Shown: positions 9,656 through 27,628 of the stretch, in pieces
How positions within the stretch are numbered: position 1 is the first letter of the stretch
Layout: each line of letters opens with the position of its first letter
Source of the DNA: Flavobacteriales bacterium
Lineage (GTDB): Bacteria > Bacteroidota > Bacteroidia > NS11-12g > UBA955
Length of the DNA: 44,524 nucleotides
Direction of reading: 5' to 3'
Assembly: GCA_002737705.1 (NCBI GenBank)
Contig: NSIM01000013.1
Coordinates: forward strand, 1 to 44,524
Notes under the pieces: model-generated
Told to the model about the DNA's origin: nothing
What the model saw: the letters and a program-made list of their open reading frames with translations, nothing else
Databases searched by the model: none
Translations under genes and position numbers: made by a program

Positions 9656-12235
9656 TCATTGTCCTATTCTGTTTTTGGGAATACCCAAGATTTTTCGAAT
9701 ACTTTCATCGGTAAACAATTGATCTTCAATGGCTCCCAATGGCAAATAAAACAAGGTATGATTTTTTATTTCCATTTTGCGAAAGGCATCACCACCAAGG
9801 CAGTAAACTGTGCCATCAGAATGTCTTGCTGCAAAAAATAACACACGAGCAGGATCCAATAGCACAGAAAATTCTCGGTTTTTTTGCTGAGACGCAATTG
9901 GCTGAAGAACTTGAATGGCATCGGGCTTTCGAAAACCAACCAATAACTGCGCAATGTCAATGGGAGCGAGTCCCTGGTCCGCAATCACAATATTGAGAGA
10001 CAAAATTGAATCTGAAGGCATAGGCTTGGCCCATGCGAACCTACCTAAACTTCTAATTTTAAAGGCATTTCTGACCAGTCCCTTGGGTGGGAAGCTTGTT
10101 TCCAAAACAGCAGAATACGTTTCGGTCAACAACTTGTTTGTCTGACTCAATTGATAGACATCAAATGCATGATTTTTTTGGTTGTGAATAGAAATGACCT
10201 GGCGTAGTAATTTCTCGAATCGAATTTGCTCTCGCTTTGCAATTTTTACATCCGAAAGATACCGTGTTTTGGGTTGTAATAACTCAATTTCCCATAATCC
10301 TTCACTGCTTCGCAACAACAAAAAATAGCGAAGACCTTTTTGTACAAAATCGATATCCCAAAATTTGTGCATGCGAAAAAAGTTGTCCATAACTTCTTTG
10401 CTTGGCCATGAAGTATTGAATGCCAGGGGATATTCTCGCAAGGGTTTGAGCTCAGGAAAAAGAGATTCTGTTTTATCGAATAGAATCATTTCAAAAACCG
10501 CCTTTTGAGAAGCATTCTTGCCTTGAAACCTTCTCACCCCAATGAGTGCCTTGCCACGCAGCAATGAAAATTGTTCTGGCCCCTTGGCCTTTTCTCCAGC
10601 CCTAGCGACCCTAAACTCCGAAAATTTGTCAATAACTTGTTTAGATTCATCGGGATTTAACAAGTAATTGAATCCCTGGGTATGGAGTCTTTCTTCTAGT
10701 TTGATACCATTGATTGTGGTTTGGGTGATTGCTGTTTTACGTCCGCTGTAAAATTGGGAAAAATCGATCGCTGCGATAGTATCATCAGAAAAATCATAAT
10801 CATAATTGTATTGGTTTACCCATTTACCATTGTCAGCTTGAAACGAGACTTCACTATACTTTCTCGATAAAGTGGTTTTATTTTCGCTTGTAGGGACAAA
10901 AGCATTGGGCTTCCAAGCATAAAATCGAGAAGTTGAACTGGGCAAACCCACGAATCGGATATCAATAAAATAGCCATCTTTTAGTGTGAGCATTTGCTTG
11001 CCATTAAAAGCTTCAATATCAATAACCATCGAAGCAGCCAATACATAATTATGCCCATTGCTATCCAAATTCAAGGGTGGAGAATACGCCATTTGCCGTT
11101 GAATATTGTCCATGATCTTCACACGCAAGCGGTAAGATCCAAAGAAATCCTTGCCATCTGCATATTTCATGCATGCCTTTGGAACCAATATGGCCCATTT
11201 TCCTTCAGCAACGTACAATCGATCTTCTTTATTTGTAGCATAAAATTCATACCAGCCATCACTGTAGTCTCGAATTAATGGCGCTGTGATTGGCACTGGG
11301 AACTGCGCTTTGGTTTGCAGCGATAGAATGGGTTGTGGTATGGCAAAATCATTGACTTTTTCTGCCAATGGATCCGTAAATCCTGTCTCTTCTGCGGGAG
11401 AAACAACCGAAAAATAGCTTGCCAAAAACTGCTTTTCGGAAGCGAGTAAATTGGGGTCTTGGCTTAAATAATGAAGCATCAATGGAGAAATATCCCCCGT
11501 AGTAAATCCATTTCCCTTTGTGGGATTTTGAACTGCTTTATAAAAACCCACTTTCATCACTACATCACCCAAGGCAGTGATATCTCTCTGGGCCATCCAA
11601 CTTGCATTGTCAATTATATTGAGACGTTGTAGCAAGCCCAAACGCTTCAAGGACTCCGGCAAATGATATATTCTGTCGAGGGAGATTCCAAATTCTTGGA
11701 TTGATGGAAATTGCAACGCCACTGCATCTATCGCTACTTGTGCTTCTTTTTCGTTAAATGGGGCGACAAGATTGAGTCTTTTACATGCCTTCCATCCCTT
11801 GAAAAAATCGTATTGGTCTGGAACAACATCAAAAACCAATGTAATGCCAGGTATGAATGCCCAATTTTTATTCATCAACAATGCATCTTCCTTGCCTGAT
11901 GGAATATACAACACCAAACTATGCAGCCATTCGAGCTGGCTTAAATCCTCATCTGAAAGTATTCCATTATACTGCTGAAGAACAACTTCGTCTACATTGT
12001 CAAGCCGACTCAATACGTGTGCTACCCTCGCAATATCAACCTCTGCGGCAACCCTAATACGCTGAACCTGTTGAAATTGGTCAAGCTTATTGGCAATCCA
12101 TTCTAATTCTGCTGGGCTTGTGATCTCAATATTAAGAGAATATCCAGGCACAGAAAATCTGGGTTTTACATACTGATATTGGGCATGGGTATTGGCTGAT
12201 AAAATCAAACAAAAAAGGAGAAAAATCCAAGACAC
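9656..12235 (-). CDS. Large secreted protein of unknown function
   Basis: I do not recognise this family. From a GTG start at 12235 the protein has a clear signal peptide (SWIFLLFCLILSANTHAQ) and about 859 residues in all. Residues 20-260 have a leucine-rich-repeat-like rhythm (LDNVDEVVLQQYNGILSDEDL). A middle segment (about 380-480) resembles beta-sandwich surface domains of Bacteroidota (SYRLRVKIMDN, then SPPLNLDSNGHNYVL). No T9SS sorting domain or catalytic motif is seen at the C-terminus. The frame stays open upstream to an ATG at 12529, but that extension is Pro/Cys/Arg-rich translation of a G-rich repeat and lies before the signal peptide, so I reject it. The GTG start is an inference. 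The protein is probably periplasmic or outer-membrane associated. Confidence 0.7.
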   Translation of the reverse strand: MSWIFLLFCLILSANTHAQYQYVKPRFSVPGYSLNIEITSPAELEWIANKLDQFQQVQRIRVAAEVDIARVAHVLSRLDNVDEVVLQQYNGILSDEDLSQLEWLHSLVLYIPSGKEDALLMNKNWAFIPGITLVFDVVPDQYDFFKGWKACKRLNLVAPFNEKEAQVAIDAVALQFPSIQEFGISLDRIYHLPESLKRLGLLQRLNIIDNASWMAQRDITALGDVVMKVGFYKAVQNPTKGNGFTTGDISPLMLHYLSQDPNLLASEKQFLASYFSVVSPAEETGFTDPLAEKVNDFAIPQPILSLQTKAQFPVPITAPLIRDYSDGWYEFYATNKEDRLYVAEGKWAILVPKACMKYADGKDFFGSYRLRVKIMDNIQRQMAYSPPLNLDSNGHNYVLAASMVIDIEAFNGKQMLTLKDGYFIDIRFVGLPSSTSRFYAWKPNAFVPTSENKTTLSRKYSEVSFQADNGKWVNQYNYDYDFSDDTIAAIDFSQFYSGRKTAITQTTINGIKLEERLHTQGFNYLLNPDESKQVIDKFSEFRVARAGEKAKGPEQFSLLRGKALIGVRRFQGKNASQKAVFEMILFDKTESLFPELKPLREYPLAFNTSWPSKEVMDNFFRMHKFWDIDFVQKGLRYFLLLRSSEGLWEIELLQPKTRYLSDVKIAKREQIRFEKLLRQVISIHNQKNHAFDVYQLSQTNKLLTETYSAVLETSFPPKGLVRNAFKIRSLGRFAWAKPMPSDSILSLNIVIADQGLAPIDIAQLLVGFRKPDAIQVLQPIASQQKNREFSVLLDPARVLFFAARHSDGTVYCLGGDAFRKMEIKNHTLFYLPLGAIEDQLFTDESIRKILGIPKNRIGQ

Positions 12236-12248
12236 CTTTGAAACTATA

Positions 12249-12296
12249 GGGGCCGCATTGGGGGTATGCCTGGTTCCCCACGGAGAAGCCCGGCCC
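12249..12296. repeat. GC-rich nested inverted repeat next to the secreted-protein start
   Basis: Outer arms GGGCCG (12250-12255) and CGGCCC (12291-12296) enclose inner arms TGGGG (12259-12263) and CCCCA (12276-12280). Transcribed from the minus strand, this would fold 14-61 bases before the GTG start of the secreted-protein gene. Confidence 0.5.
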
Positions 12297-12353
12297 AAAA
12301 AACCTTGCCGATTTCTGATTCTGCGAATGCAATTAAAGTGCTTCACGATATAG

Positions 12354-12468
12354 GGTTGGCAGGTTGGCGGCGAGCGGCGAGCGGGATGGCAGGTTGGAGG
12401 GCAGGTTGGAGGGTTGGAGGGTTGGCACATGGCGTGATAAGGTGACAACATGATGGCGAACGGGTTGG
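12354..12468. repeat. Cluster of seven GGTTGG repeats (possible G-quadruplex)
   Basis: GGTTGG occurs at 12354, 12362, 12392, 12404, 12412, 12420 and 12463, with a tandem GGCGAGC pair at about 12369-12382 between them. Paired GGTTGG units are the core of two-tetrad G-quadruplexes. On the minus strand the tract is pyrimidine-rich (CCAACC units) and lies in the presumed leader of the secreted-protein gene. Confidence 0.75.
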
Positions 12469-12499
12469 TGGGGCCATATCTGTCTCGTCCTAAAAAAAG

Positions 12500-12571
12500 T
12501 TTACAGTTTAAGTTGTTTATTCCTAGCATTGGTTTACAGTTGATTCATGGTCTTGAAACTGATTTACAATT
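12500..12571. repeat. Three TTTACAGTT-like repeats at 30-33 bp spacing
   Basis: TTTACAGTT starts at 12500 and 12533, and TTTACAATT starts at 12563. The 33- and 30-bp steps are close to three helical turns. This could be an array of operator sites upstream of the secreted-protein gene, or a local duplication. Confidence 0.5.
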
Positions 12572-12585
12572 GCGTTGGGATTTGC

Positions 12586-13332
12586 CTATTGCCAGGATCT
12601 GATATCACAGAGTGTATGGGTTATTTCGCCTGTATGGGCGTTTACAATTCCCTGGGCAGAAAGGGTATCAATGCGGACATGGCCATGGGCATGTAAAATT
12701 TGGCCATGACCCATGCAAATTCCCACATGCACCACGATTCCATCTGAATTGCTGAAATACACCAAATCGCCACTGGCGATTTGGTTCCACATTTTTTTTA
12801 TGCCCATGGTTGCTTGTTCATGCGCATCTCGGGGCATCGATAATTTTAGCAATTTTCCAACAACCTGAATTAAACCACTGCAATCGATTCCCCAAAAACT
12901 TCTTCCACCCCATAAATAAGGCGTATTGAGAAAAGCCTGGGCTATTTCATGGGGTTTTACTGGAAGCTTTTTTCCAGAATGATAGTGGTATATAGAACCA
13001 AAAATTTCTAATTTCTTCGCATCGGGAATAAGGCTACCTGGGGAAAGCAAAATTTCATCACCCTGTTTTCCTTGCATCCTTGCACCAATTTCATCCACAA
13101 CATTCCATTTAAAGTCTATATAGGGTGTCGCATCTTCCAAATATAGTGCAGGAATCCAACCCGAATAATGGTCTTCGTTACGGCGAACCTGAAACCAATC
13201 GTCTTCTTTGTTTAGCAGCGTACAAGTTTCTCCAAATAGCAAGGAACTTGTCATCTCCGTTTTCGAAGACGCCCCTGCACGCAATGGTGCCCATGATTTT
13301 AAACACAAAAACTGCTGTTTATGGGTTTGCAT
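12586..13332 (-). CDS. NlpC/P60 (C40) cell-wall hydrolase with SH3 domains
   Basis: This is a probable peptidoglycan endopeptidase cutting within stem peptides. The 248 residues have SH3-like segments (about 10-65 and 75-120; CxLLNKEDDWFQVRRNEDHYSGW pattern) followed by an NlpC/P60 domain from about 125. That domain has the catalytic Cys151 in GIDCSGL, His202 in VVHVGI and a third polar residue in LHAHGHVR (His214 or His216). No signal peptide is obvious at the N-terminus (MQTHKQQFLC), as in related Bacteroidota C40 proteins, so the site of action is uncertain; recycling-type or dipeptide-releasing activity is possible. The gene lies 26 bp downstream of the ferredoxin gene and may share its transcript. 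Confidence 0.92.
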   Translation of the reverse strand: MQTHKQQFLCLKSWAPLRAGASSKTEMTSSLLFGETCTLLNKEDDWFQVRRNEDHYSGWIPALYLEDATPYIDFKWNVVDEIGARMQGKQGDEILLSPGSLIPDAKKLEIFGSIYHYHSGKKLPVKPHEIAQAFLNTPYLWGGRSFWGIDCSGLIQVVGKLLKLSMPRDAHEQATMGIKKMWNQIASGDLVYFSNSDGIVVHVGICMGHGQILHAHGHVRIDTLSAQGIVNAHTGEITHTLCDIRSWQ

Positions 13333-13358
13333 TGTTGCGAAGATAAGTTATAGGGCAA

Positions 13359-13706
13359 TCACAAATGCAAACGCGCCTTTCGATCCAATAAAATCGCTTC
13401 GCTTTCTACATGGTCTGGATCTGGAACACAACAATCAACCGGACAAACAGCCGCGCATTGAGGCTCTTCATGAAAACCCATGCATTCTGTACATTTATCG
13501 GGTACAATAAAATAAACCTCTTGGCTCACAGGTGTGAATTTTTGATTGACGTCAACCTGCAAGCCACTTGCCAACAAAAATTCGCCACCAATGTCTGTAC
13601 CATCTGCAATTGCCCATTCAACACCCGCCTCATAAATAGCATTGTTTGGACATTCGGGTTCACAAGCTCCGCAGTTTATACATTCTTCCGTAATGATGAT
13701 TGCCAT
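13359..13706 (-). CDS. fdx: 2[4Fe-4S] ferredoxin
   Basis: This 115-residue electron carrier has two cluster motifs. The first is the classical CxxCxxCxxxCP (Cys9, 12, 15, 19). The second is the expanded form found in Allochromatium-type ferredoxins, Cys72-xx-Cys75-x8-Cys84-xxx-Cys88-Pro. Extra cysteines 92 and 93 follow. The loop between motifs is also long (residues 30-66). Such ferredoxins have very low potentials; the partner here is unknown. The gene has its own promoter and is divergent from the phosphoesterase gene. Confidence 0.93.
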   Translation of the reverse strand: MAIIITEECINCGACEPECPNNAIYEAGVEWAIADGTDIGGEFLLASGLQVDVNQKFTPVSQEVYFIVPDKCTECMGFHEEPQCAAVCPVDCCVPDPDHVESEAILLDRKARLHL

Positions 13707-13716
13707 AATAGTAGTG

Positions 13717-13749
13717 CAAAGTTACAACCCTTTCGTAACTTCGACCCAA
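13717..13749 (-). promoter_or_regulatory. Promoter of the ferredoxin gene
   Basis: On the minus strand, TTG (13749-13747) precedes a perfect TAACTTTG box (13724-13717) by 22 bp. Transcription would start about 5 bases before the ATG at 13706, giving an almost leaderless mRNA. Confidence 0.5.
13719..13741. repeat. Inverted repeat between divergent promoters
   Basis: AAGTTAC (13719-13725) and GTAACTT (13735-13741) form a perfect 7-bp inverted repeat with a 9-bp centre. Each arm is part of an outward-facing TAnnTTTG-like box: TAACTTTG leftward, and TAACTTCG (one mismatch) rightward. Confidence 0.6.
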
Positions 13750-13765
13750 TATTTACCCCCAGAAT

Positions 13766-14269
13766 ATGGAAATTGCCATTTTAAGCGACATACACAATCA
13801 TTCAGAAAATCTAAGCCGCGCACTTCAGTCTATTCAAAATGAAGGCATTTCTACTGTCATTTTTTGCGGTAATTTTTGTTCGCCTGAAGTTTTAGAACAA
13901 ATGGGTTTGTGTTCTCTGAGCATTCATGCAGTGTTTGGCGATCGGGATATTGACCGCGAATCATTGAAAGCCACCGCCAATCGATACAAATCGATCTATT
14001 TGTATGGAGAATACATCGGTAGCGAAGAAAATTCTCTACCCCTAGACGATATTCGATTCGGGGTAAGCCACTATCCTTTTTATGCAAAGGCAATGATCAA
14101 AACAGGTTGGTTTGATGTGGTTTGCTATGGTCATTCACAGAAAGCGCATAGACAAAAATTTGGAATTTCGCTTTTGCTAAATCCAGGATCCATTGCTGGA
14201 ATTGATTCGGAGCCGAGTTATGCTATTTATGAAACGAAGATGCGCAGTTCACGCATTGTTTTGTTTTAA
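13766..14269 (+). CDS. YfcE-type metallophosphoesterase with altered metal ligands
   Basis: The 167-residue protein has the length and fold signatures of the YfcE/MJ0936 calcineurin-like phosphodiesterases: SDIH (residues 7-10), CGNF (about 34-37), FGDRDID (about 57-63), SHYPF (about 97-101), YGHSQ (about 120-124) and LNPGS (about 134-138). The usual motifs are DxH, GDxxx, GNxD, a His, GHTH and NPGS. Here GD has become GN, GN has become GD, and the last His of GHTH is Gln, so three metal-site positions are changed. It may bind different metals, have weak activity, or be a pseudo-enzyme. The rest is well conserved and the gene is not broken. Confidence 0.85.
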   Translation: MEIAILSDIHNHSENLSRALQSIQNEGISTVIFCGNFCSPEVLEQMGLCSLSIHAVFGDRDIDRESLKATANRYKSIYLYGEYIGSEENSLPLDDIRFGVSHYPFYAKAMIKTGWFDVVCYGHSQKAHRQKFGISLLLNPGSIAGIDSEPSYAIYETKMRSSRIVLF

Positions 14270-14295
14270 TTTTTTGCACCCCCAATTTACCATCA

Positions 14296-14312
14296 ATGAC
14301 TTAACAAGTCAT
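14296..14312. terminator. Possible bidirectional terminator between convergent genes
   Basis: ATGACTT and AAGTCAT form a perfect 7-bp stem with an AAC loop between the ends of the phosphoesterase gene and the convergent udk gene. The flanks are AT-rich, but there is no clean T-tract, so termination is uncertain. Confidence 0.3.
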
Positions 14313-14335
14313 GCGCAATTTTAATTTTTAATTGC

Positions 14336-14983
14336 TCAATCCCCGCGCAATTTTTCCAAGACGGTCGGGTGAGCTTGGCTGTAAATTTGTTTTACAATAT
14401 TCTGAATATTGCTATCGGCAGGACCCCTATTTTCAATCACCAGATTGCAGCGGTGCTCATGGGGTAAAATATGGGTATTGAATGCTGGCATTACGTGGTA
14501 TTCCCATTGGTGCAAACTCCGCTTAAGGGGTATTCCCCGCTCTTTTATGTCCCTATCCAAACGGCGATTAAAACACAAGTCTAAATCACAATTGATAAAA
14601 ATCCGATAATCAAGCAACGCATCAATTTCTGGATAGTCTAACACAAATAATCCCTCTACCACCAAAATTGGAGATGGATGAACAACGATTATTTCTTCTG
14701 GCGCATCATAATTCTCAAAATGGTATTTGGGTATTTTAACAGATTTATAGGCAATAAGATCCATCAAATCATTATGGAAACGCTCACTGAACAATGCAGC
14801 GGGTAAATCATAATTGACTTCCCCAAATTCATCACGGCATTGAAATTCTAAGGGCTTATAATAATCATCAAAGCCAACAATTGTAATGTTTTCAGCAAAT
14901 ACTTTGCGCAGGGCATTGACATAATGGGTTTTGCCAGAACCCGACAATCCAATTATCCCGATGACAAATGGCTTAACCTGCAT
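14336..14983 (-). CDS. udk: Uridine kinase
   Basis: This enzyme phosphorylates uridine and cytidine to the monophosphates in pyrimidine salvage. The 215 residues carry the Walker A loop GLSGSGKT (12-19), the substrate segment FDDYYKP (about 38-44), a Walker B-like VVEGLF (about 107-112) and the lid RRLDRDIKERG (about 138-148). Length is normal. The start codon lies one base after the stop of the upstream MORN-type gene, so the two are translationally close and should form an operon. A phosphoribulokinase-like relative is the only serious alternative. Confidence 0.9.
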   Translation of the reverse strand: MQVKPFVIGIIGLSGSGKTHYVNALRKVFAENITIVGFDDYYKPLEFQCRDEFGEVNYDLPAALFSERFHNDLMDLIAYKSVKIPKYHFENYDAPEEIIVVHPSPILVVEGLFVLDYPEIDALLDYRIFINCDLDLCFNRRLDRDIKERGIPLKRSLHQWEYHVMPAFNTHILPHEHRCNLVIENRGPADSNIQNIVKQIYSQAHPTVLEKLRGD

Positions 14984-14984
14984 A

Positions 14985-16133
14985 CTAATTTTTACGTTTG
15001 AAAAATTTCTCTTTCAAGACCTCTCCATTTTCATCATAGACTTGATTTACCAATGGCCTTCCTTGGTTGTCCATGAACAACCATTTTCCAATCATTTCTC
15101 CGTCGCGGTATTTTCCATATCGCTCCTGATAATGACTTACCTGCCCATGAATCCAATACCCTTCACGTTTGCCTTGAACAAACAAACCAGCCGTTTCGGT
15201 AGTCAACACCATGGATTTGCTCTTTTCGTCCCACAGATCAGCCATCGTAAAAAATCGGCCCTCGGGTATACCCGATTGAAATGACGCTAGATGCAGGGTA
15301 TCTCCAAATGCATTGTAATCGACAAAAATTCCATTTTTTGAACCCCGCGTCCAAACACCCTCCGAAATCAATTTACACGTGACGGCATCCCACGTTCTGG
15401 AAATACTGTCGCGCAACCCATGCTTAAAATACATTTCGGTAGCGCGACATCCATTTCGGTGGAATTGGAAAAATTTTCCATTGTAAACTCCCCGCTCATA
15501 CTCTTTAATATACCTTGTGGTACTGTCTTGATAATAGGCTATTACAGCGCCGTCTGGCATGTCATTTACGAAGAATGCAACCTGTTCTAGCGCCCCATTT
15601 TGATAATAAGATAGCGCCGAACCTTCCCTCACTCCAAGGTTATAGTGTTTTGCATATTGCAAAGTCCCGTTCATATAAAACCCTTTCACTTCAGCGTGTA
15701 AACTATCGTCCAAAAAATCACCCATAACCACAACAATTCCTGTCTTTTCGTCTGCGTAACGAAATGCGCCGTTTTTTTTACCCTTGGCCCAAGTTTCTTG
15801 TGCTACCAAAATTCCCTTTTCTGTATATTCGAGATAGAGACCCTGCTTAAGACCCGAGACATACCCTTGTTCGGTATTCATGCGATGGTCTGACCACAAA
15901 GAAATTGCTTTGCCCGTAAATACAATCTCCACACCGAATTTGTCGGTAAAGCTAGCCAGGCCATTGATATACTGAAGAGATTCGGCTTTGATTTTTTTAA
16001 TTGTTTGTTCTGATGATGGTGCCAGGATTGTTTGTTCTATACTCTTCTTAGAAGTTTTTGTTTGCGCAAACACATTTGGTAAAACCCCTAAGAAAAAAAG
16101 GGTAATTAAAGAATTTATTCGTGTCTTCATCAA
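14985..16133 (-). CDS. Secreted MORN/YwqK-type repeat protein
   Basis: The 382-residue protein has a signal peptide (INSLITLFFLGVLPNVFAQ) and then tandem repeats of the MORN/YwqK type from about residue 90 to the end. Each carries a G-x-x-x-G-x-(F/Y)-x-x-(F/Y) pattern, for example SGLKQGLYLEY, KGKKNGAFRY, REGSALSYYQNG and VYNGKFFQFHRNG. Databases call many such proteins antitoxins, after one Bacillus example. No toxin gene lies nearby, so that label is not supported here. A surface or periplasmic beta-rich scaffold is more likely. It precedes udk by one base. Confidence 0.85.
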   Translation of the reverse strand: MMKTRINSLITLFFLGVLPNVFAQTKTSKKSIEQTILAPSSEQTIKKIKAESLQYINGLASFTDKFGVEIVFTGKAISLWSDHRMNTEQGYVSGLKQGLYLEYTEKGILVAQETWAKGKKNGAFRYADEKTGIVVVMGDFLDDSLHAEVKGFYMNGTLQYAKHYNLGVREGSALSYYQNGALEQVAFFVNDMPDGAVIAYYQDSTTRYIKEYERGVYNGKFFQFHRNGCRATEMYFKHGLRDSISRTWDAVTCKLISEGVWTRGSKNGIFVDYNAFGDTLHLASFQSGIPEGRFFTMADLWDEKSKSMVLTTETAGLFVQGKREGYWIHGQVSHYQERYGKYRDGEMIGKWLFMDNQGRPLVNQVYDENGEVLKEKFFKRKN

Positions 16134-16144
16134 AAATGTTTATT

Positions 16145-16171
16145 CAAAATTAACGGGTAGCCTTAAATTTG
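16145..16171. promoter_or_regulatory. Back-to-back -7 boxes for the MORN-type and mmcQ genes
   Basis: The minus strand reads TAATTTTG at 16152-16145, about 11 bases before the MORN-type gene start. The plus strand reads TAAATTTG at 16164-16171, 21 bases before the mmcQ ATG. Both match TAnnTTTG. Neither has a convincing -33 element. Confidence 0.5.
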
Positions 16172-16192
16172 CATTGCGTTTTTTCCCACAAT

Positions 16193-16546
16193 ATGGAATA
16201 TTTCGATTTTGTACAACAGTATTGCGAATCAAAACCCCTTGTTACTGCAGGATTTCCATTCGATGAAACAACAATCGTTTGGAAAGTAGAAGGAAAAATT
16301 TTTTGTATCGGAGACATCAAACACTTTGAGAGTATCGCACTGAAATGCGACCCAGAAAAGGCGCAGTTATTGCGACAAGAGCATTCACAAATTTCAGGGG
16401 CTTACCATATGAACAAAACTCATTGGAACACCATTATCTTTGACGGGCTATCGCAAAGCTTGCTGGAGTCATTAATCACCCATAGTTTTGAATTAGTGGT
16501 ACGAAAATTGCCTAAAAAAACCCGAGAACTTATCAATAACGCATGA
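16193..16546 (+). CDS. MmcQ/YjbR-family protein
   Basis: The 117-residue protein matches the MmcQ/YjbR family (DUF419). It has the conserved N-terminal [29 protein letters not shown] pattern (residues 9-37, read here in two parts: CESKP and [12 protein letters not shown]), then a basic C-terminal half with HMNKTHWN. Members have a CyaY-like fold and a suggested DNA-binding role, but no established function. I chose the ATG at 16193 because the only longer start, a TTG at 16169, falls inside the -7 promoter box. The stop overlaps the next start by ATGA. Confidence 0.88.
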
Positions 16547-17628
16547 AAAACACACTCTCTACAATCACCGCATTGCTTTACAGCGCATTCAGTCTTATGG
16601 CTTGCGCTTCAAACCCAGAAAAAGAAAACCCTATGAATAACGAGAACCTAGAACTTGGCCAAAAAGATTTGGCAGATGGCATTTATGCCCAAATGAACAC
16701 CAATAAGGGAACCATCTTGTTGCAATTGTTCTTTAAAGAAACGCCCCTCACTGTTTGCAATTTCGTCGGCTTGGCTGAAGGAAATATATCGAATACGGCA
16801 AAAGCCAAAGGCATTCCATTTTATGACGGTCTAAAGTTTCACCGGGTAATCGCTGAGTTCATGATTCAAGGGGGCGATCCTCTGGGAAATGGAAGTGGAG
16901 ACCCAGGCTACAAATTTGAAGACGAATTTATTGATACACTCAAACATTCGACGCCAGGAATATTGTCAATGGCAAACTCAGGTCCTGGCACCAATGGTTC
17001 ACAATTTTTTATCACCCATGTTGCCACTCCTTGGTTGAATGGCTTTCATACGATTTTTGGAAAAGTAATCACCGGACAAGATATTGTCAATGCAATTCAA
17101 CAAGACGACATTATCATCAACCTAAAAATTATCCGTCAAGGTACAGAAGCAAAAGCCTTTAAAGCCAATGATGACCAATTCAAACTACTCCAATCTACTG
17201 CCAAAGAACGAACTATGGTAGCCGAAGCTGAGGCCAATAAACTTTGTTCTGCAGGATTTGACAATTGGTTGCAGAACAATTATCCGAATGCCAAAAGAAC
17301 CGCTAGCGGATTGTGTTATGTGATAGAAAAAGAAGGCACCGGACCCCAAGCAGTTTCTGGAAATACAGTAAGTGTTCATTACGCGGGTAAACTAGAAAAT
17401 GGAACAGAGTTTGACAATTCTTATAAAAGAGAAGAGCCCATAGAGTTTAAATTGGGTATTGGACAAGTAATACCAGGCTGGGACGAAGGAATTGCACTGA
17501 TGAAAGTTGGTGCCAAATACAAATTGCTCATCCCCTCTAACTTGGGGTATGGAAAAAGAGGCGCTGGTGGCGTAATTCCTCCAAACGCCACCTTGATATT
17601 TGATACAGAGTTATTGAATATCAAATAA
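16543..17628 (+). CDS. Cyclophilin-FKBP fusion peptidyl-prolyl isomerase lipoprotein
   Basis: This 361-residue lipoprotein has two different prolyl-isomerase domains. The lipobox SLMAC places the acylated cysteine at residue 21. A cyclophilin domain spans about 47-200, with the catalytic Arg101 in FHRVI, the FMIQGGD motif and a GSQFFIT core. A charged helical linker (about 205-250) follows. An FKBP domain spans about 255-361, with [22 protein letters not shown] and the [13 protein letters not shown] end. It probably assists folding of exported proteins in the periplasm, anchored to a membrane. Its start overlaps the mmcQ stop by four bases. Confidence 0.93.
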
Positions 17629-22357: not shown

Positions 22358-25321
22358 ATGATCAAAAAACTACCTATTTATAGTCTTGTATTCGTTGTTT
22401 TTTTCATTCTCAAAAACCCTGCACAGAGTCAAAATGTTGGAATAAATGAGACTGGAGCAAACCCAGACGCATCGGCTATGCTCGATATCAATACCAGTAA
22501 TAAAGGATTGCTCGTGCCCCGTCTTTCAAAGGCTCAAAAATCATTAATTGCCTCGCCCGCCAATGGATTGCTGGTATATCAAACGGATGATACTCTGGGC
22601 TTTTGGTACTACGAAAATACCAAATGGGTTCCATTGATGCGGTCAATCACAGCAGGAAAAGGACTCAGTGGTGGACTTATTCAAGGTAAAGGGACTATCT
22701 CTATCAAAACTACTGGAGTTGTAGCCAAAAAATATGGGGCATTAGATTCAATTCCAGTGGTTACCATAAATGCAGAAGGGCAAATCACATCGGCTACCAC
22801 AATCGCGACAAACTTCTTGAACAAGTCAGATACACTGTGGAGTTGGAGAATCATGGGTAATAAAGGAACAGACGACACCAAGCATTTTTTAGGTACGCAA
22901 GACAACAAAGCCCTTAGATTTCGTGTAAATAACAAATGGGCTGGTGAAATCAACCCTTCTAACGACAATATTTCTTTGGGTACCAATGCCAATAAAACTT
23001 CCAATGGTGCACAAAATATTGCAATTGGACTTTCCGCATTAGAGCAAGCCGCAAACAATAAGGGCGACATCATTGCGATTGGACAGTATGCTTTATCATC
23101 CAACGGAATTGGTGCAACGGGCAGCAGTCAAGGTGTTGAAAATATAGCGATTGGACCAAAAGCCATGTCGGGCAATAGATCTGGTAGTTACAATATTGCT
23201 TTAGGACAACGCGTTATGGAAAGCGCCCAATTCAACTATGGCAACATCGGTATTGGTTTTGAGGCAATGAAACAATCCTACAACTCCTATTACAACGTTG
23301 CCATTGGAATGTACGCGATGAGTTACAACCAAACAGGCAATTACAACTGTGCCATTGGTTATGGCTCGTTGCTCTACAATGGGAATGGTTATTATAACTC
23401 GGCGTATGGTTTCTATTCCTTATTATACAACAGTTCAGGTTTTGGCAATACTGCAACGGGAATGTATGCTATGACCGTGAATACTACCGGGCAATATAAT
23501 ACATCGAGTGGTTATCAGTCGCTCTATACTAGTTATGGATCAAACTACAATACAGCGTTGGGTGCGTTTGCGGCAGTAAGTACCACAACCAAAGGAGATA
23601 ACAATACTGCAGTGGGCTATGCTGCTTTGTATAAAAATACAACAGGCTATTCCAATGTTGCGTTGGGTGTTGCAACGTTATATAATAATACCATTCGGGG
23701 CAATTTGGTTGCCGTAGGTGATTCTGCCTTATTTAATAACGGAGTATGGAATGGTCCCGGCCAAGCATCATTTAATACAGCAATAGGAAGTAAAGCCCTC
23801 TTCACAAATACTTCAGGTTCAAATAATACCGCGGTGGGATATCGGTCACTGCAATCAACCGCAACCGGTATAAACAACACTAGTGTTGGTGCCAATTCCC
23901 TAAATGCAAATACAGCAAGTGACAACACTGCATATGGATATAATGCCTTGTCAAAAAATACAACAGGCGCGAATAACACATCAAATGGTTCAGAGGCATT
24001 ATCCGCCAATACAACAGGAAATCGCAACTTGGCTAATGGGTACAATGCATTAAAAGCAGCAACAACCGGTTCTGATAATGTTGCAGTTGGAAGTCGCGCC
24101 TTGATCGCATCAACCACAAGCTCTAACAACGTCGCTTTAGGATCCGACGCATTATTGGCAACTACCACTGGTGGCAATAATACCTCTATCGGTTATCAAA
24201 CTTTAGCAACGGCTACAACCGCAAGTAATAATACTGCAATTGGCTACCGATCTCTTACTGCCAATTCATCCGGGGTTAACAACACTGCCATTGGAGCCCC
24301 TGCTGCCGTTGCATTAACTTCTGGTAGCCAAAACATTGCTATCGGAAATACTGCACTAAATGCAAATACTACCGGCGATAATAACGTTGCCCTAGGATTT
24401 GAATCTTTACTCTCAGCTACTTCTACAGAATTTAATGTTGCCTTAGGCGCTCAAGCACTGAGAGCTTTTAATAACACAAATGGTAATACTGGTAGAAATA
24501 CAGCAGTTGGTTACCAATCTATGTATAGAACTACCAGTGGATCATACAATACAGCGCTAGGATATCAATCATTAGACAATAATACCACAGGGCAATTAAA
24601 TACGGCCATAGGATACGCCGCAATGCCCAATTCTTCAACTGCCGGAAATAATACAGCGATAGGATACGATGTATTAAATAATTTATCTACAGCAAACAAC
24701 AATACTGGAGTAGGATATCAAGCTCTTTATCAAGTAACAACTGGCGGCAATAATACTGCTATTGGCTTCCAGGCTGGCCCAGATTGGACTGGTGGTACAA
24801 ATACAAATGCTACAGCAGTAGGATATCAGGCCGTAACAACAGCAAGTAATCAAGTCCGCATTGGAAACAACTCTGTTACATCAATTGGCGGATTTACAGC
24901 ATGGACCAATCTTTCCGATGGACGTTATAAAACCAATATTCAAGAAAATGTACCCGGTTTGGATTTTGTATTGAAACTGCGCCCGGTAACCTACAATTTT
25001 GATTTCGATAAATTAAATAAGACCCTAAAACCAGCGGCAGCCGACGCTCCTGCGACAAACGAGGATAACCCCAACTTAGGTGTTCAATATTCAGGATTCG
25101 TAGCACAGGATGTAGAAAAAGCAGCGAAAGAAATTGGATATGACTTCTCTGGGGTAGACAAAGCAAAATCAGAAACCGACCTTTATGGTTTGAGATATAG
25201 CGAATTTGTCGTTCCTATGGTTAAAGCCATCCAAGAACAACAAGCACAAATTGATGCATTGAAAAAACAAAATGCAGAACTGGTGCGCATCATTGGTGAA
25301 ATACAAGCCAACAAAAAATAA
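22358..25321 (+). CDS. Repeat-rich surface protein with S74 intramolecular chaperone (tail-fiber-like)
   Basis: The 987-residue secreted protein has a signal peptide ending PAQSQ (about residue 25) and an N-terminal domain with the PDASAMLDINTSNKGLLVPRL signature of Bacteroidota surface fibres. It then has 35 short repeats (about 218-830) of the form N-x-A-x-G-x-x-(A/S)-(L/M). The C-terminus is a peptidase S74/endosialidase chaperone domain with the Ser853/Lys858 pair in SDGRYKTNI. A coiled coil (EQQAQIDALKKQNAELV) closes it. The family makes trimeric fibres and S74 domains usually cleave themselves off after assembly. No T9SS sorting domain is visible. The next gene starts 18 bp later and encodes a T9SS cargo protein, suggesting a surface pair. 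Adhesion is an inference. Confidence 0.88.
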   Translation: MIKKLPIYSLVFVVFFILKNPAQSQNVGINETGANPDASAMLDINTSNKGLLVPRLSKAQKSLIASPANGLLVYQTDDTLGFWYYENTKWVPLMRSITAGKGLSGGLIQGKGTISIKTTGVVAKKYGALDSIPVVTINAEGQITSATTIATNFLNKSDTLWSWRIMGNKGTDDTKHFLGTQDNKALRFRVNNKWAGEINPSNDNISLGTNANKTSNGAQNIAIGLSALEQAANNKGDIIAIGQYALSSNGIGATGSSQGVENIAIGPKAMSGNRSGSYNIALGQRVMESAQFNYGNIGIGFEAMKQSYNSYYNVAIGMYAMSYNQTGNYNCAIGYGSLLYNGNGYYNSAYGFYSLLYNSSGFGNTATGMYAMTVNTTGQYNTSSGYQSLYTSYGSNYNTALGAFAAVSTTTKGDNNTAVGYAALYKNTTGYSNVALGVATLYNNTIRGNLVAVGDSALFNNGVWNGPGQASFNTAIGSKALFTNTSGSNNTAVGYRSLQSTATGINNTSVGANSLNANTASDNTAYGYNALSKNTTGANNTSNGSEALSANTTGNRNLANGYNALKAATTGSDNVAVGSRALIASTTSSNNVALGSDALLATTTGGNNTSIGYQTLATATTASNNTAIGYRSLTANSSGVNNTAIGAPAAVALTSGSQNIAIGNTALNANTTGDNNVALGFESLLSATSTEFNVALGAQALRAFNNTNGNTGRNTAVGYQSMYRTTSGSYNTALGYQSLDNNTTGQLNTAIGYAAMPNSSTAGNNTAIGYDVLNNLSTANNNTGVGYQALYQVTTGGNNTAIGFQAGPDWTGGTNTNATAVGYQAVTTASNQVRIGNNSVTSIGGFTAWTNLSDGRYKTNIQENVPGLDFVLKLRPVTYNFDFDKLNKTLKPAAADAPATNEDNPNLGVQYSGFVAQDVEKAAKEIGYDFSGVDKAKSETDLYGLRYSEFVVPMVKAIQEQQAQIDALKKQNAELVRIIGEIQANKK
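23012..24850 (+). repeat. Region of 35 degenerate YadA-stalk-like repeats inside the S74 gene
   Basis: By hand I count 35 units, mostly 16-24 residues long, each centred on a pattern like NTAIGYxAL. The first about ten units are rich in Tyr and Asn with Met or Leu ends (YNVAIGMYAM). Units 15-27 are rich in Thr, Ser and Asn. The shift suggests at least two expansion events. Such repeats build left-handed beta-rolls in trimeric adhesin stalks. Confidence 0.85.
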
Positions 25322-25339
25322 TCAAATCTCTGTTACTTG

Positions 25340-27628
25340 ATGAAAAATCTACTGCTCTGTATACCCTGTTTTATCGCTTCTTGCCTCTTTGGCCAAGGAT
25401 GGGTGCACAATGGAGCCACTGTGGTAGTAAACAATGGTATATTTATCGTTTTAGATGGTATCAATGGCCATTATAAAGCACAGTCTAATGCGTCTTTTTT
25501 CTTAAAAGGCGATGTGGTCATTCAATTAAAAGGCAATTGGATCAACAATTCATCCGGCGGAATTTTTGCAACAAATGATGGAAAAATCGTGTTGAATGGT
25601 GCCTCTCAATCATTTCAGGGGTCGGCAATGACTGCTTTTCCTGCTCTTGATCTCAAATGCAGCGCCAACCCAAGTTTACAATCAACTATTTTGGTTGGGG
25701 GCGGGCAAGCTGGTGGTGGGATTGGGAAATTATCACTCAATGACAAACAGCTATTGCTCAATGGCAAACGCCTTATTATCAACAACCGATCAGAATCGGC
25801 AACTACGCGCAGCACTGGGGGTATCGTTTCAGAAACTTTTCCCGCACTCGGTTATGGAGAAGTGCAATGGAATATCCGAACTGGGGGTGCAGGACCCCTT
25901 TACCGTATCCCATTCCAAACCATTGGAGGGGTAGACATTCCCTTTGATTACAATATTAAGAATACAGGGTTGCAAACCAAAGACAGTGGATTTATCACAA
26001 TCTCCACCTATACTACACCCACTGTTTCCTTGCCCAATAACAGACCCTTGCCTTTTGGGGTTCCCCATGCCCGCAATGAATTTGCAACGGAAAATGCCCG
26101 TCGAATGATTGACCGATTTTGGGTTATTGCCGACGGAGGTTATACCAATAAACCCGAAATAAGCCTCGAATTTACCTATGCAGACGCGGAACACAATTCC
26201 GGAACCAATACTATTAAAGAAGTTAATATGGGTGCTATTTCATGGAATGCCGTTTCCAATAAATGGAATTACCCACCCAAATCAAAAGTAAACACAGCAA
26301 AAAATACACTCTTGTTGCATGCAGGACAAAATTTTTCGGGAATATGGACATTCAGCGAAGGAACTCCTTGCCCTATTGCAAATTTTAGCACGGTGGGGTC
26401 CTGCGAAAAAGACAGTGTTTTATTTGCCGACAAAAGTAGCGTTGTCGACGACACTTTGATTCGCTGGATATGGGCTTACGGAAATGGAAATGCTGGCTTT
26501 GGCGACTCAAGCGTCGGATATTTTTCTCCAGCTGGAATATATAAAACACGATTGATCGTCATAGCCGCCAGCGGATGTGCCGATACAACGTTTAAAAATA
26601 TCAATGTCTTAGGTGCCCCCCAAGCAAACATTGCCATTGATGACAGTTGCGAGAACACATCTGTCAAATTTACTTCATTCACTTCCCCTGGCAGCGGTTT
26701 TATTTCCAAAGAATACTGGTGGTTTGGAGACGGTTCCACCGCTATTGGAAAAAGCGCCTCTCACTATTATGGAACATCTGGTCTTCCTCAAATTAAATAT
26801 ATCGTCTACAATAGCAATTTGTGCAAGGACACCATTGAAAGAACCCTTTATATCGCAAATAAGCCCTTCGTTTACTTTAGTGTCAAGCCCGATTGTGAAG
26901 ACCTTATCTTTCCGTTCACCAATTCGTCGACAGCAGGTGCGGGAACCATCAGTTCATACAATTGGGATTTTGGCAATGGTCGCAGGTCTGGAAACCGCGA
27001 TGAAAATGTAGTGTTTTATGATTCAGGGACGTTTAAGACAAAACTGATTGTAATGAATAGCTTTGGATGCAGAGACACCAGCGAAGTCTCTTTAAGGGTT
27101 TTTCCGAGGGCAATTGCATCTTATACGTATAGTCCGTTTGACCCCAAAATGTTAAGCCCTGTTCAGTTTAACAACAATTCGAAACTATCAAACAACTGGA
27201 ATTGGGATTTTGGCGATGGATATTTTGATTTGTCATTCAGTCCAAGTCATATATACAACATGTATGGGCCCTATGATGTGTCTTTAATTGCAAACAATGA
27301 TTATAACTGTGCCGATACCTTCACTGTAAATATCCGGGTAAAATCAAAACCTATGTTTTGGTTCCCAACAGCCTTTTCTCCCCAAAATACCGAAGGCCTG
27401 AATGACCAATTTGGATTGTTTTCTATCCTCACTGTTAGCAATTATAAATTAAGGATATACAACCGCTACGGTCAATTGCTATTTGAAACAACCAATCCCA
27501 CTGTTTTGTGGGATGGAAAAGTGAATGGGGAATTATGCCAAGGTGGCTCTTATGTCTATGACGCTATATTTAAAAATCCTGAGAATGAACTTCAACATTT
27601 CTCAGGGGATGTAACACTATTGCGCTAG
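25340..27628 (+). CDS. Secreted PKD-domain protein with T9SS type B sorting domain
   Basis: The 762-residue protein has a short signal peptide (CIPCFIASCLFGQ) and a beta-rich N-terminal domain. Several PKD-like domains occupy about residues 345-675, with repeated W-x-(F/Y)-G-(D/N)-G signatures such as WWFGDGS, NWDFGNG and NWDFGDG. The C-terminus carries the gliding-motility-associated sorting domain: WFPTAFSPQNTEGLNDQF, YNRYGQLLFET and DGKVNGELCQGGSYVY. It should be exported by T9SS and attached to the surface. The ATG at 25340 is used; a TTG one codon earlier is less likely. It follows the S74 gene by 18 bp. Confidence 0.92.
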   Translation: MKNLLLCIPCFIASCLFGQGWVHNGATVVVNNGIFIVLDGINGHYKAQSNASFFLKGDVVIQLKGNWINNSSGGIFATNDGKIVLNGASQSFQGSAMTAFPALDLKCSANPSLQSTILVGGGQAGGGIGKLSLNDKQLLLNGKRLIINNRSESATTRSTGGIVSETFPALGYGEVQWNIRTGGAGPLYRIPFQTIGGVDIPFDYNIKNTGLQTKDSGFITISTYTTPTVSLPNNRPLPFGVPHARNEFATENARRMIDRFWVIADGGYTNKPEISLEFTYADAEHNSGTNTIKEVNMGAISWNAVSNKWNYPPKSKVNTAKNTLLLHAGQNFSGIWTFSEGTPCPIANFSTVGSCEKDSVLFADKSSVVDDTLIRWIWAYGNGNAGFGDSSVGYFSPAGIYKTRLIVIAASGCADTTFKNINVLGAPQANIAIDDSCENTSVKFTSFTSPGSGFISKEYWWFGDGSTAIGKSASHYYGTSGLPQIKYIVYNSNLCKDTIERTLYIANKPFVYFSVKPDCEDLIFPFTNSSTAGAGTISSYNWDFGNGRRSGNRDENVVFYDSGTFKTKLIVMNSFGCRDTSEVSLRVFPRAIASYTYSPFDPKMLSPVQFNNNSKLSNNWNWDFGDGYFDLSFSPSHIYNMYGPYDVSLIANNDYNCADTFTVNIRVKSKPMFWFPTAFSPQNTEGLNDQFGLFSILTVSNYKLRIYNRYGQLLFETTNPTVLWDGKVNGELCQGGSYVYDAIFKNPENELQHFSGDVTLLR

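Follow-up and report, generated by a model that had tools for sequence, protein, structure and literature searches.

What becomes of a phosphoesterase whose metal ligands have been exchanged for one another? The question is raised by a gene on a 44,524-nucleotide contig from a Flavobacteriales bacterium (the window, which here means this whole stretch of DNA). The gene, at 13766–14269 (+), is an intact open reading frame of 167 amino acids with an ATG start, and profile matches and a structural model identify its product as a phosphoesterase ortholog of the YfcE/MJ0936 type with a changed metal site. Is this still an active enzyme, with a different choice of metal? Or has the catalytic centre been lost and, if so, is the gene decaying or is the protein kept for some other function? 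Here we investigate the gene in the context of its locus, its orthologs and the known proteins of the same fold.

The phosphoesterase gene and its locus

In a Pfam profile search the protein matches PF12850 (E 3.5e-22), and against TIGR00040, the YfcE family, it scores 66.4 bits, the curated cut-off being 56.25. Its best sequence match in the PDB is the archaeal phosphodiesterase MJ0936 (1s3l, 2ahd), with an E value of 1.3e-19; the VPS29 chains match weakly (6.5e-4). The window protein and MJ0936 are alike in length and in motif spacing up to GNND. They would also be alike in fold: the AlphaFold2 model of the window protein (pLDDT 94.4) is predicted to be calcineurin-like and aligns with 1s3l at Z 25.0, with an rmsd of 1.5 Å over 161 residues and 30% identity. 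The model also matches E. coli YfcE (1su1, Z 18.3), VPS29 (Z up to 17.5) and LpxH (5b49, Z 15.6). The protein of a sister species, G012, is modelled with similar confidence (pLDDT 94.0). Confident models are no proof that either protein is stable.

The gene is flanked by a YfhL-type 4Fe-4S ferredoxin gene at 13359–13706 (-), identified by profile match, and the two adjoin in all 20 regions compared. Where the contig reaches far enough, the usual order is NlpC, ferredoxin, phosphoesterase, udk, MORN, YjbR and PPIase. In the window the convergent neighbour is a uridine-kinase-like gene at 14336–14983 (-), recognised by profile match and gene order. The right-hand neighbours were not found or are distant in some genomes, and L045 has the ferredoxin-phosphoesterase pair inverted. 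Because gene order is conserved, the window gene is taken as the resident ortholog at this locus and not a stray paralog. By descent it thus belongs with TIGR00040, being the syntenic ortholog of canonical members. A second, canonical YfcE is present in the window genome (G000:C4, L109) and likewise in G012 (L110).

Ferredoxin and phosphoesterase are transcribed divergently, so that a functional link between them is possible. The 59 bp that separate them (13707–13765) are common to both genes; in the alignment, short boxes line up across the canonical orthologs and look promoter-like by eye. These boxes also resemble, by eye, the consensus of the Bacteroidota -7 element.

Further along the window, a single protein encoded at 16543–17628 (+) contains a cyclophilin domain (PF00160) followed by an FKBP domain (PF00254), making it a double prolyl isomerase, and by eye it appears to be a lipoprotein. 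Cyclophilin-FKBP fusions are already known. The gene at 9656–12529 (-) encodes a protein of 957 amino acids that has no Pfam match at E 0.001 and is present at 31–58% identity in 11 of 19 regions, the sister's region excluded. Another gene, at 22358–25321 (+), encodes a protein of 987 amino acids that carries an endosialidase-chaperone (Peptidase_S74) domain at its C-terminus; its neighbour at 25337–27628 encodes a protein with PKD repeats and a type IX secretion signal.

The metal site and other invariant positions

Which ligands have changed? We take residues 8, 10, 36, 59, 97, 120 and 122 of MJ0936 to be its metal ligands. The seven positions of the window protein, which are in register with MJ0936 and with the orthologs, are D8, H10, N36, D59, H102, H123 and Q125. 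MJ0936 has D36, N59 and His at both 120 and 122, whereas the window protein has N36, D59 and Q125. The canonical set of D, H, D, N, H, H, H has thus become D H N D H H Q, with three of seven ligands altered in comparison with YfcE and TIGR00040, and in the sister species D H N D H Q Q. Both Asp/Asn changes had been claimed in the original prediction, as GN for GD at Asn36 (D36N) and GDRD for GNxD at Asp59 (N59D), and both hold in register with the orthologs and with MJ0936. It had also read GHTH as GHSQ; here the replacement of His by Gln stands, but the Gln is residue 125 and not about 124.

The roles assigned to these residues are supported by two published descriptions. In the available part of PMC5016852, metal 1 of LpxH is coordinated by two His and two Asp, and one of these Asp bridges to metal 2, which has one Asn and two His as its other ligands. 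The metallophosphoesterase motif, as it appears in the available part of PMC4320098, is D-x-H, GD, GNHD, H and GHxH. By alignment, D8 and H10 (codons 8–10, 13787–13795) are site-1 ligands and are kept. N36 (13871–13873) stands where canonical orthologs have the metal-bridging Asp. D59 and R60 (13940–13945) replace canonical N59 and N60, changing GNND to GDRD. H102 (14069–14071) is a site-2 ligand and is kept, and H123 (14132–14134), also of site 2, is kept in the window and replaced by Gln in the sister species. Q125 (14138–14140) occupies a site-1 position that is His in canonical orthologs. All of these codons, and those that follow, are on the forward strand.

The changes are not confined to the ligands. 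Thirty-six positions are invariant in the 36 canonical orthologs of the family. Eight of them are altered in both species (D11N, D36N, F41E, N59D, N60R, D86S/G, H125Q and E142S), 27 are unchanged in both, and H123 is altered in the sister alone. By alignment, codon N11 (13796–13798) is Asp and E41 (13886–13888) is Phe in 36 of 36 canonical orthologs, S86 (14021–14023) is Asp in the same 36 and Gly in the sister, and S142 (14189–14191) changes NPGE to NPGS. When each of the 36 canonical proteins was left out in turn and compared with those sharing less than 85% identity with it, between 0 and 3 changes were found, against the 8 of the window pair. A similar excess is seen in comparison with the surrounding genes: 11 of 46 invariant positions are altered in both species in the target, versus 7 of 396 for six neighbours taken together (12 to 20 reference genomes per gene; Fisher p 8.9e-8). 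When the same 12 reference genomes are used for every gene (10 for the PPIase), the counts are 11/51 and 8/408 (p 4.3e-7).

The altered positions, with H123 counted, are not significantly enriched in the motif loops (7/21, versus 2/15 elsewhere; p 0.25), and identical new states in both species at seven of the eight positions are no excess over the overall identity of 87%. L080, a protein of another family with canonical ligands that was left out of the invariant-site count, differs at 5 of the 36 positions, including 86 and 142. These two are therefore not fixed outside the family, and not all eight changed positions need be catalytic.

Distribution of the swap among orthologs

The sister protein of G012 is 87% identical to that of the window. 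It has the same N36, D59, R60 and Q125 and in addition H123Q, so that GHSQ becomes GQSQ. L027, from a Bacteroidota metagenome-assembled genome (MAG), encodes a protein identical to that of G012. Could the swap then be an error of sequencing or assembly? The MAG origin of L027 speaks for this, but the same changes are common to two genomes that are separated by a dS of 0.41 and encode proteins only 87% identical, which makes error extremely unlikely.

Matches to the target gene were found in 25 of 58 related genomes and, in a family-wide search, in 40 of 70 genomes (26 of the 42 with a completeness of 90% or more). The ortholog was not found in the other 30 of these 70, some of them incomplete (16 of the 42 at least 90% complete), and it was not found in any of the 17 genomes of one genus. 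Members of the family thus seem able to do without the gene, and it may be in the course of being lost. Among the 40 family genomes with a match, two have the swap (the window's and G012), 36 have distinct full-length orthologs that are canonical at all seven positions and 42–58% identical to the window protein, and two have partial orthologs that are canonical where readable. One of the partial genes lies at a contig start (G009). The other, in G014, was considered as an N-terminal truncation, which was ruled out because the missing part is a scaffold gap of N.

Reading the ligands in 54 alignment rows gave D H D N H H H in 51; the exceptions are the window, G012 and G014 with its gap. Some rows repeat the same gene, and seven of the 61 loci analysed gave no row. 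Among these seven is L110, in which HAGD, GNID and GHSH, the usual motifs, were read separately. Another 40 proteins of the YfcE family, hand-picked from a score-ranked class-wide listing with the weakest matches left out, are canonical without exception (40/40). Comparison with homologues had been proposed in the original prediction as a check on the site; among the sequences compared there is no active homologue with the swapped residues and no alternative ligand position.

A fixed-spacing DNA pattern of the swap, which detects MJ0936-like spacing only and would miss swapped proteins of other spacing, matched 1 of 395 Bacteroidota genomes, and this was the window's own. The pattern also matched 27 viral contig stretches, with no relatives found by profile search of the 19 frames of more than 60 aa. 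On the fetched loci the canonical form was detected at 65 (repeats included), and the swapped form only at the loci of the two species and in the window. Among the matches listed in the open-licence literature, judged by titles and the beginnings of abstracts, none concerns a bacterial protein with this swap. Among the sequences compared, then, the swap is confined to the window/G012 pair. Chance is an unlikely source of the altered set, given that every one of the other 36 full-length orthologs in the family is canonical and that the pair has an excess of changes at invariant sites.

A probable non-catalytic binding protein and its alternatives

The gene has been under purifying selection since the split of the two species. 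For the window/G012 pair dN/dS comes to 0.163 (bootstrap 0.089–0.292) at a dS of 0.41. This is within the range of 13 other genes in the same species pair (0.02 to 0.21) and two to three times the values of seven canonical pairs of the target gene with dS between 0.1 and 1 (0.057–0.081). When the window pair is compared with the canonical pair L037–L040, dN/dS is raised in all six neighbours, by factors of 2 to 4, and in the target by 2.3. Since the neighbours are raised alike, the rise in the target appears to be lineage-wide, and a claim of relaxed selection from dN/dS alone was dropped for this reason. Along 12586–17628 all six neighbours give higher dN/dS values for window and sister than for one canonical pair from their genus, which suggests weaker selection throughout the lineage. 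An overall acceleration of the target was also considered, and the results were mixed. Its pair-to-genus branch ratio is ordinary, at 1.99 (neighbours 1.31–2.55). Its pair-to-outgroup ratio is the highest of the genes compared, the pair branch exceeding the outgroup branch (0.737 versus 0.546) as in none of the six neighbours, and in excess divergence from outgroups it ranks first of 12 genes (0.101; others 0.014–0.077).

A fold kept in the model, the loss of key catalytic residues and purifying selection are together the features of a pseudoenzyme. In the literature found, the pseudoenzyme of this fold is VPS29, in which the swap is ancient. The chains of E. histolytica and C. parvum (5xce, 2a22) align with the window protein with a GN...GD swap and GHTH, and the reciprocal exchange, at equal spacing, is common to VPS29 (1w24, 2a22, 5xce) and the window protein, both having Asn for the bridging Asp and Asp for the Asn. 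NPGS is also common to E. histolytica VPS29 (5xce) and the window protein. In mammalian VPS29 the swapped counterpart is presumably the Asp at position 62, and D62 is named in PDB titles for amoebal VPS29. According to the available part of PMC3101248, Asn39 of VPS29 stands in place of the bridging Asp, and the mammalian protein has a Zn Kd above 250 uM, with no phosphatase activity found; the paper also mentions one earlier report of weak activity and places the putative active site buried at the interface with VPS35. VPS29 retains GHTH in the aligned chains, whereas the window protein has GHSQ and the sister GQSQ.

Might the bacterial gene then be a true relative of VPS29, from or common with eukaryotes? 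The swap at equal spacing and the NPGS motif would fit such a descent. VPS29, however, is a eukaryotic subunit of retromer and retriever with VPS35 as its partner, and the window gene lies at a conserved bacterial locus. Its product is far closer to MJ0936 than to VPS29 in both sequence and fold, and in sequence the full-length canonical orthologs are much closer too. Such a descent is highly improbable on these grounds, and the exchange most likely arose separately.

We therefore favour, with a probability of about 0.65, a lineage-specific pseudo-phosphoesterase that arose apart from VPS29, lost its two-metal centre and is kept as a folded, non-catalytic binding protein. Judged from the residues at the site, two-metal hydrolysis has very probably been lost; that a binding role has been retained is also likely, if somewhat less so. 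In this lineage of two sister species a conserved MJ0936/YfcE-type phosphodiesterase ortholog would have lost its catalytic centre. Metal site 1 (D8, H10, D36 and H125) would lack the bridging carboxylate and one His, with D8 and H10 remaining. Metal site 2 (D36, N59, H102 and H123) would lack the bridge and have Asp for its Asn, with one His fewer in the sister as well, leaving H102, H123 and D59 in the window protein and H102 and D59 in the sister. Such a protein should be incapable of holding both of the metals that hydrolysis requires, although a weakly held metal could still bind, since D8, H10 and H102 (and H123 in the window) remain. As the gene is kept intact despite the apparent loss of the catalytic site, its product probably binds rather than cuts, and most likely the old active-site cleft now serves for docking, either of another protein or of a phosphorylated ligand.

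Binding of such a phosphorylated ligand is an option because R60, directly after the Asn59 equivalent, is placed like Arg80 of LpxH, which directly follows Asn79 and holds the substrate phosphate (available part of PMC5016852). LpxH, according to the same source, keeps all seven ligands and has a helical insertion and a lipid substrate, and in this it differs from the window protein. The other option is protein docking as in VPS29. Tentatively, a bacterium might even have repeated the step of VPS29 independently, exchanging Asp and Asn and turning a dead cleft into a protein-docking surface, with the protein as scaffold subunit of a bacterial complex.

Against the preferred reading stands the fact that only two species carry the change. 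Could the gene simply be a decaying remnant under relaxed selection? The many family genomes in which no ortholog was found, the further ligand gone in the sister, a dN/dS above that of the canonical pairs, the excess divergence from outgroups and the long pair branch would all agree with decay. On the other hand the open reading frame is intact in both species, the bootstrap interval of dN/dS excludes 1, the neighbours are raised too and have pair-to-genus branch ratios like that of the target, most invariant positions are unchanged in both species and the upstream region still aligns. We consider decay rather unlikely on balance, and a very recent loss of constraint may have occurred.

The original prediction had offered two readings of the site, compensating swaps with altered metal choice and a non-catalytic binder. 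In the former the Asp/Asn exchange would have left an active enzyme, for example one with a mononuclear site 2 built on a 2-His-1-carboxylate triad of D59, H102 and H123. The window protein has all of the triad, both species retain D8 and H10, the new states are mostly alike in the two, and the one earlier report of weak VPS29 activity would be in keeping with some catalysis. The triad is broken, however, by Q123 of the sister, which argues against a mononuclear site as the selected function even though it is conceivable in the window protein. The more His ligands are lost (H125Q, and H123Q in the sister), the less likely a compensated active site becomes. The weak zinc binding and inactivity published for mammalian VPS29, and the alteration of D11 and N60 in spite of their invariance in the 36 canonical orthologs, also count against compensation. 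We regard it as improbable, and the same evidence, including the VPS29 swap itself, favours the second reading, the non-catalytic binder.

The importance of the non-catalytic reading is twofold. The two species that carry the swap belong to a single bacterial genus, and in their relatives this locus has canonical orthologs. With such close and presumably active relatives the functional cost and the order of D36N, N59D, H125Q and H123Q are testable. In addition, TIGR00040 would label the gene a phosphodiesterase in these genomes, and the label is probably misleading.
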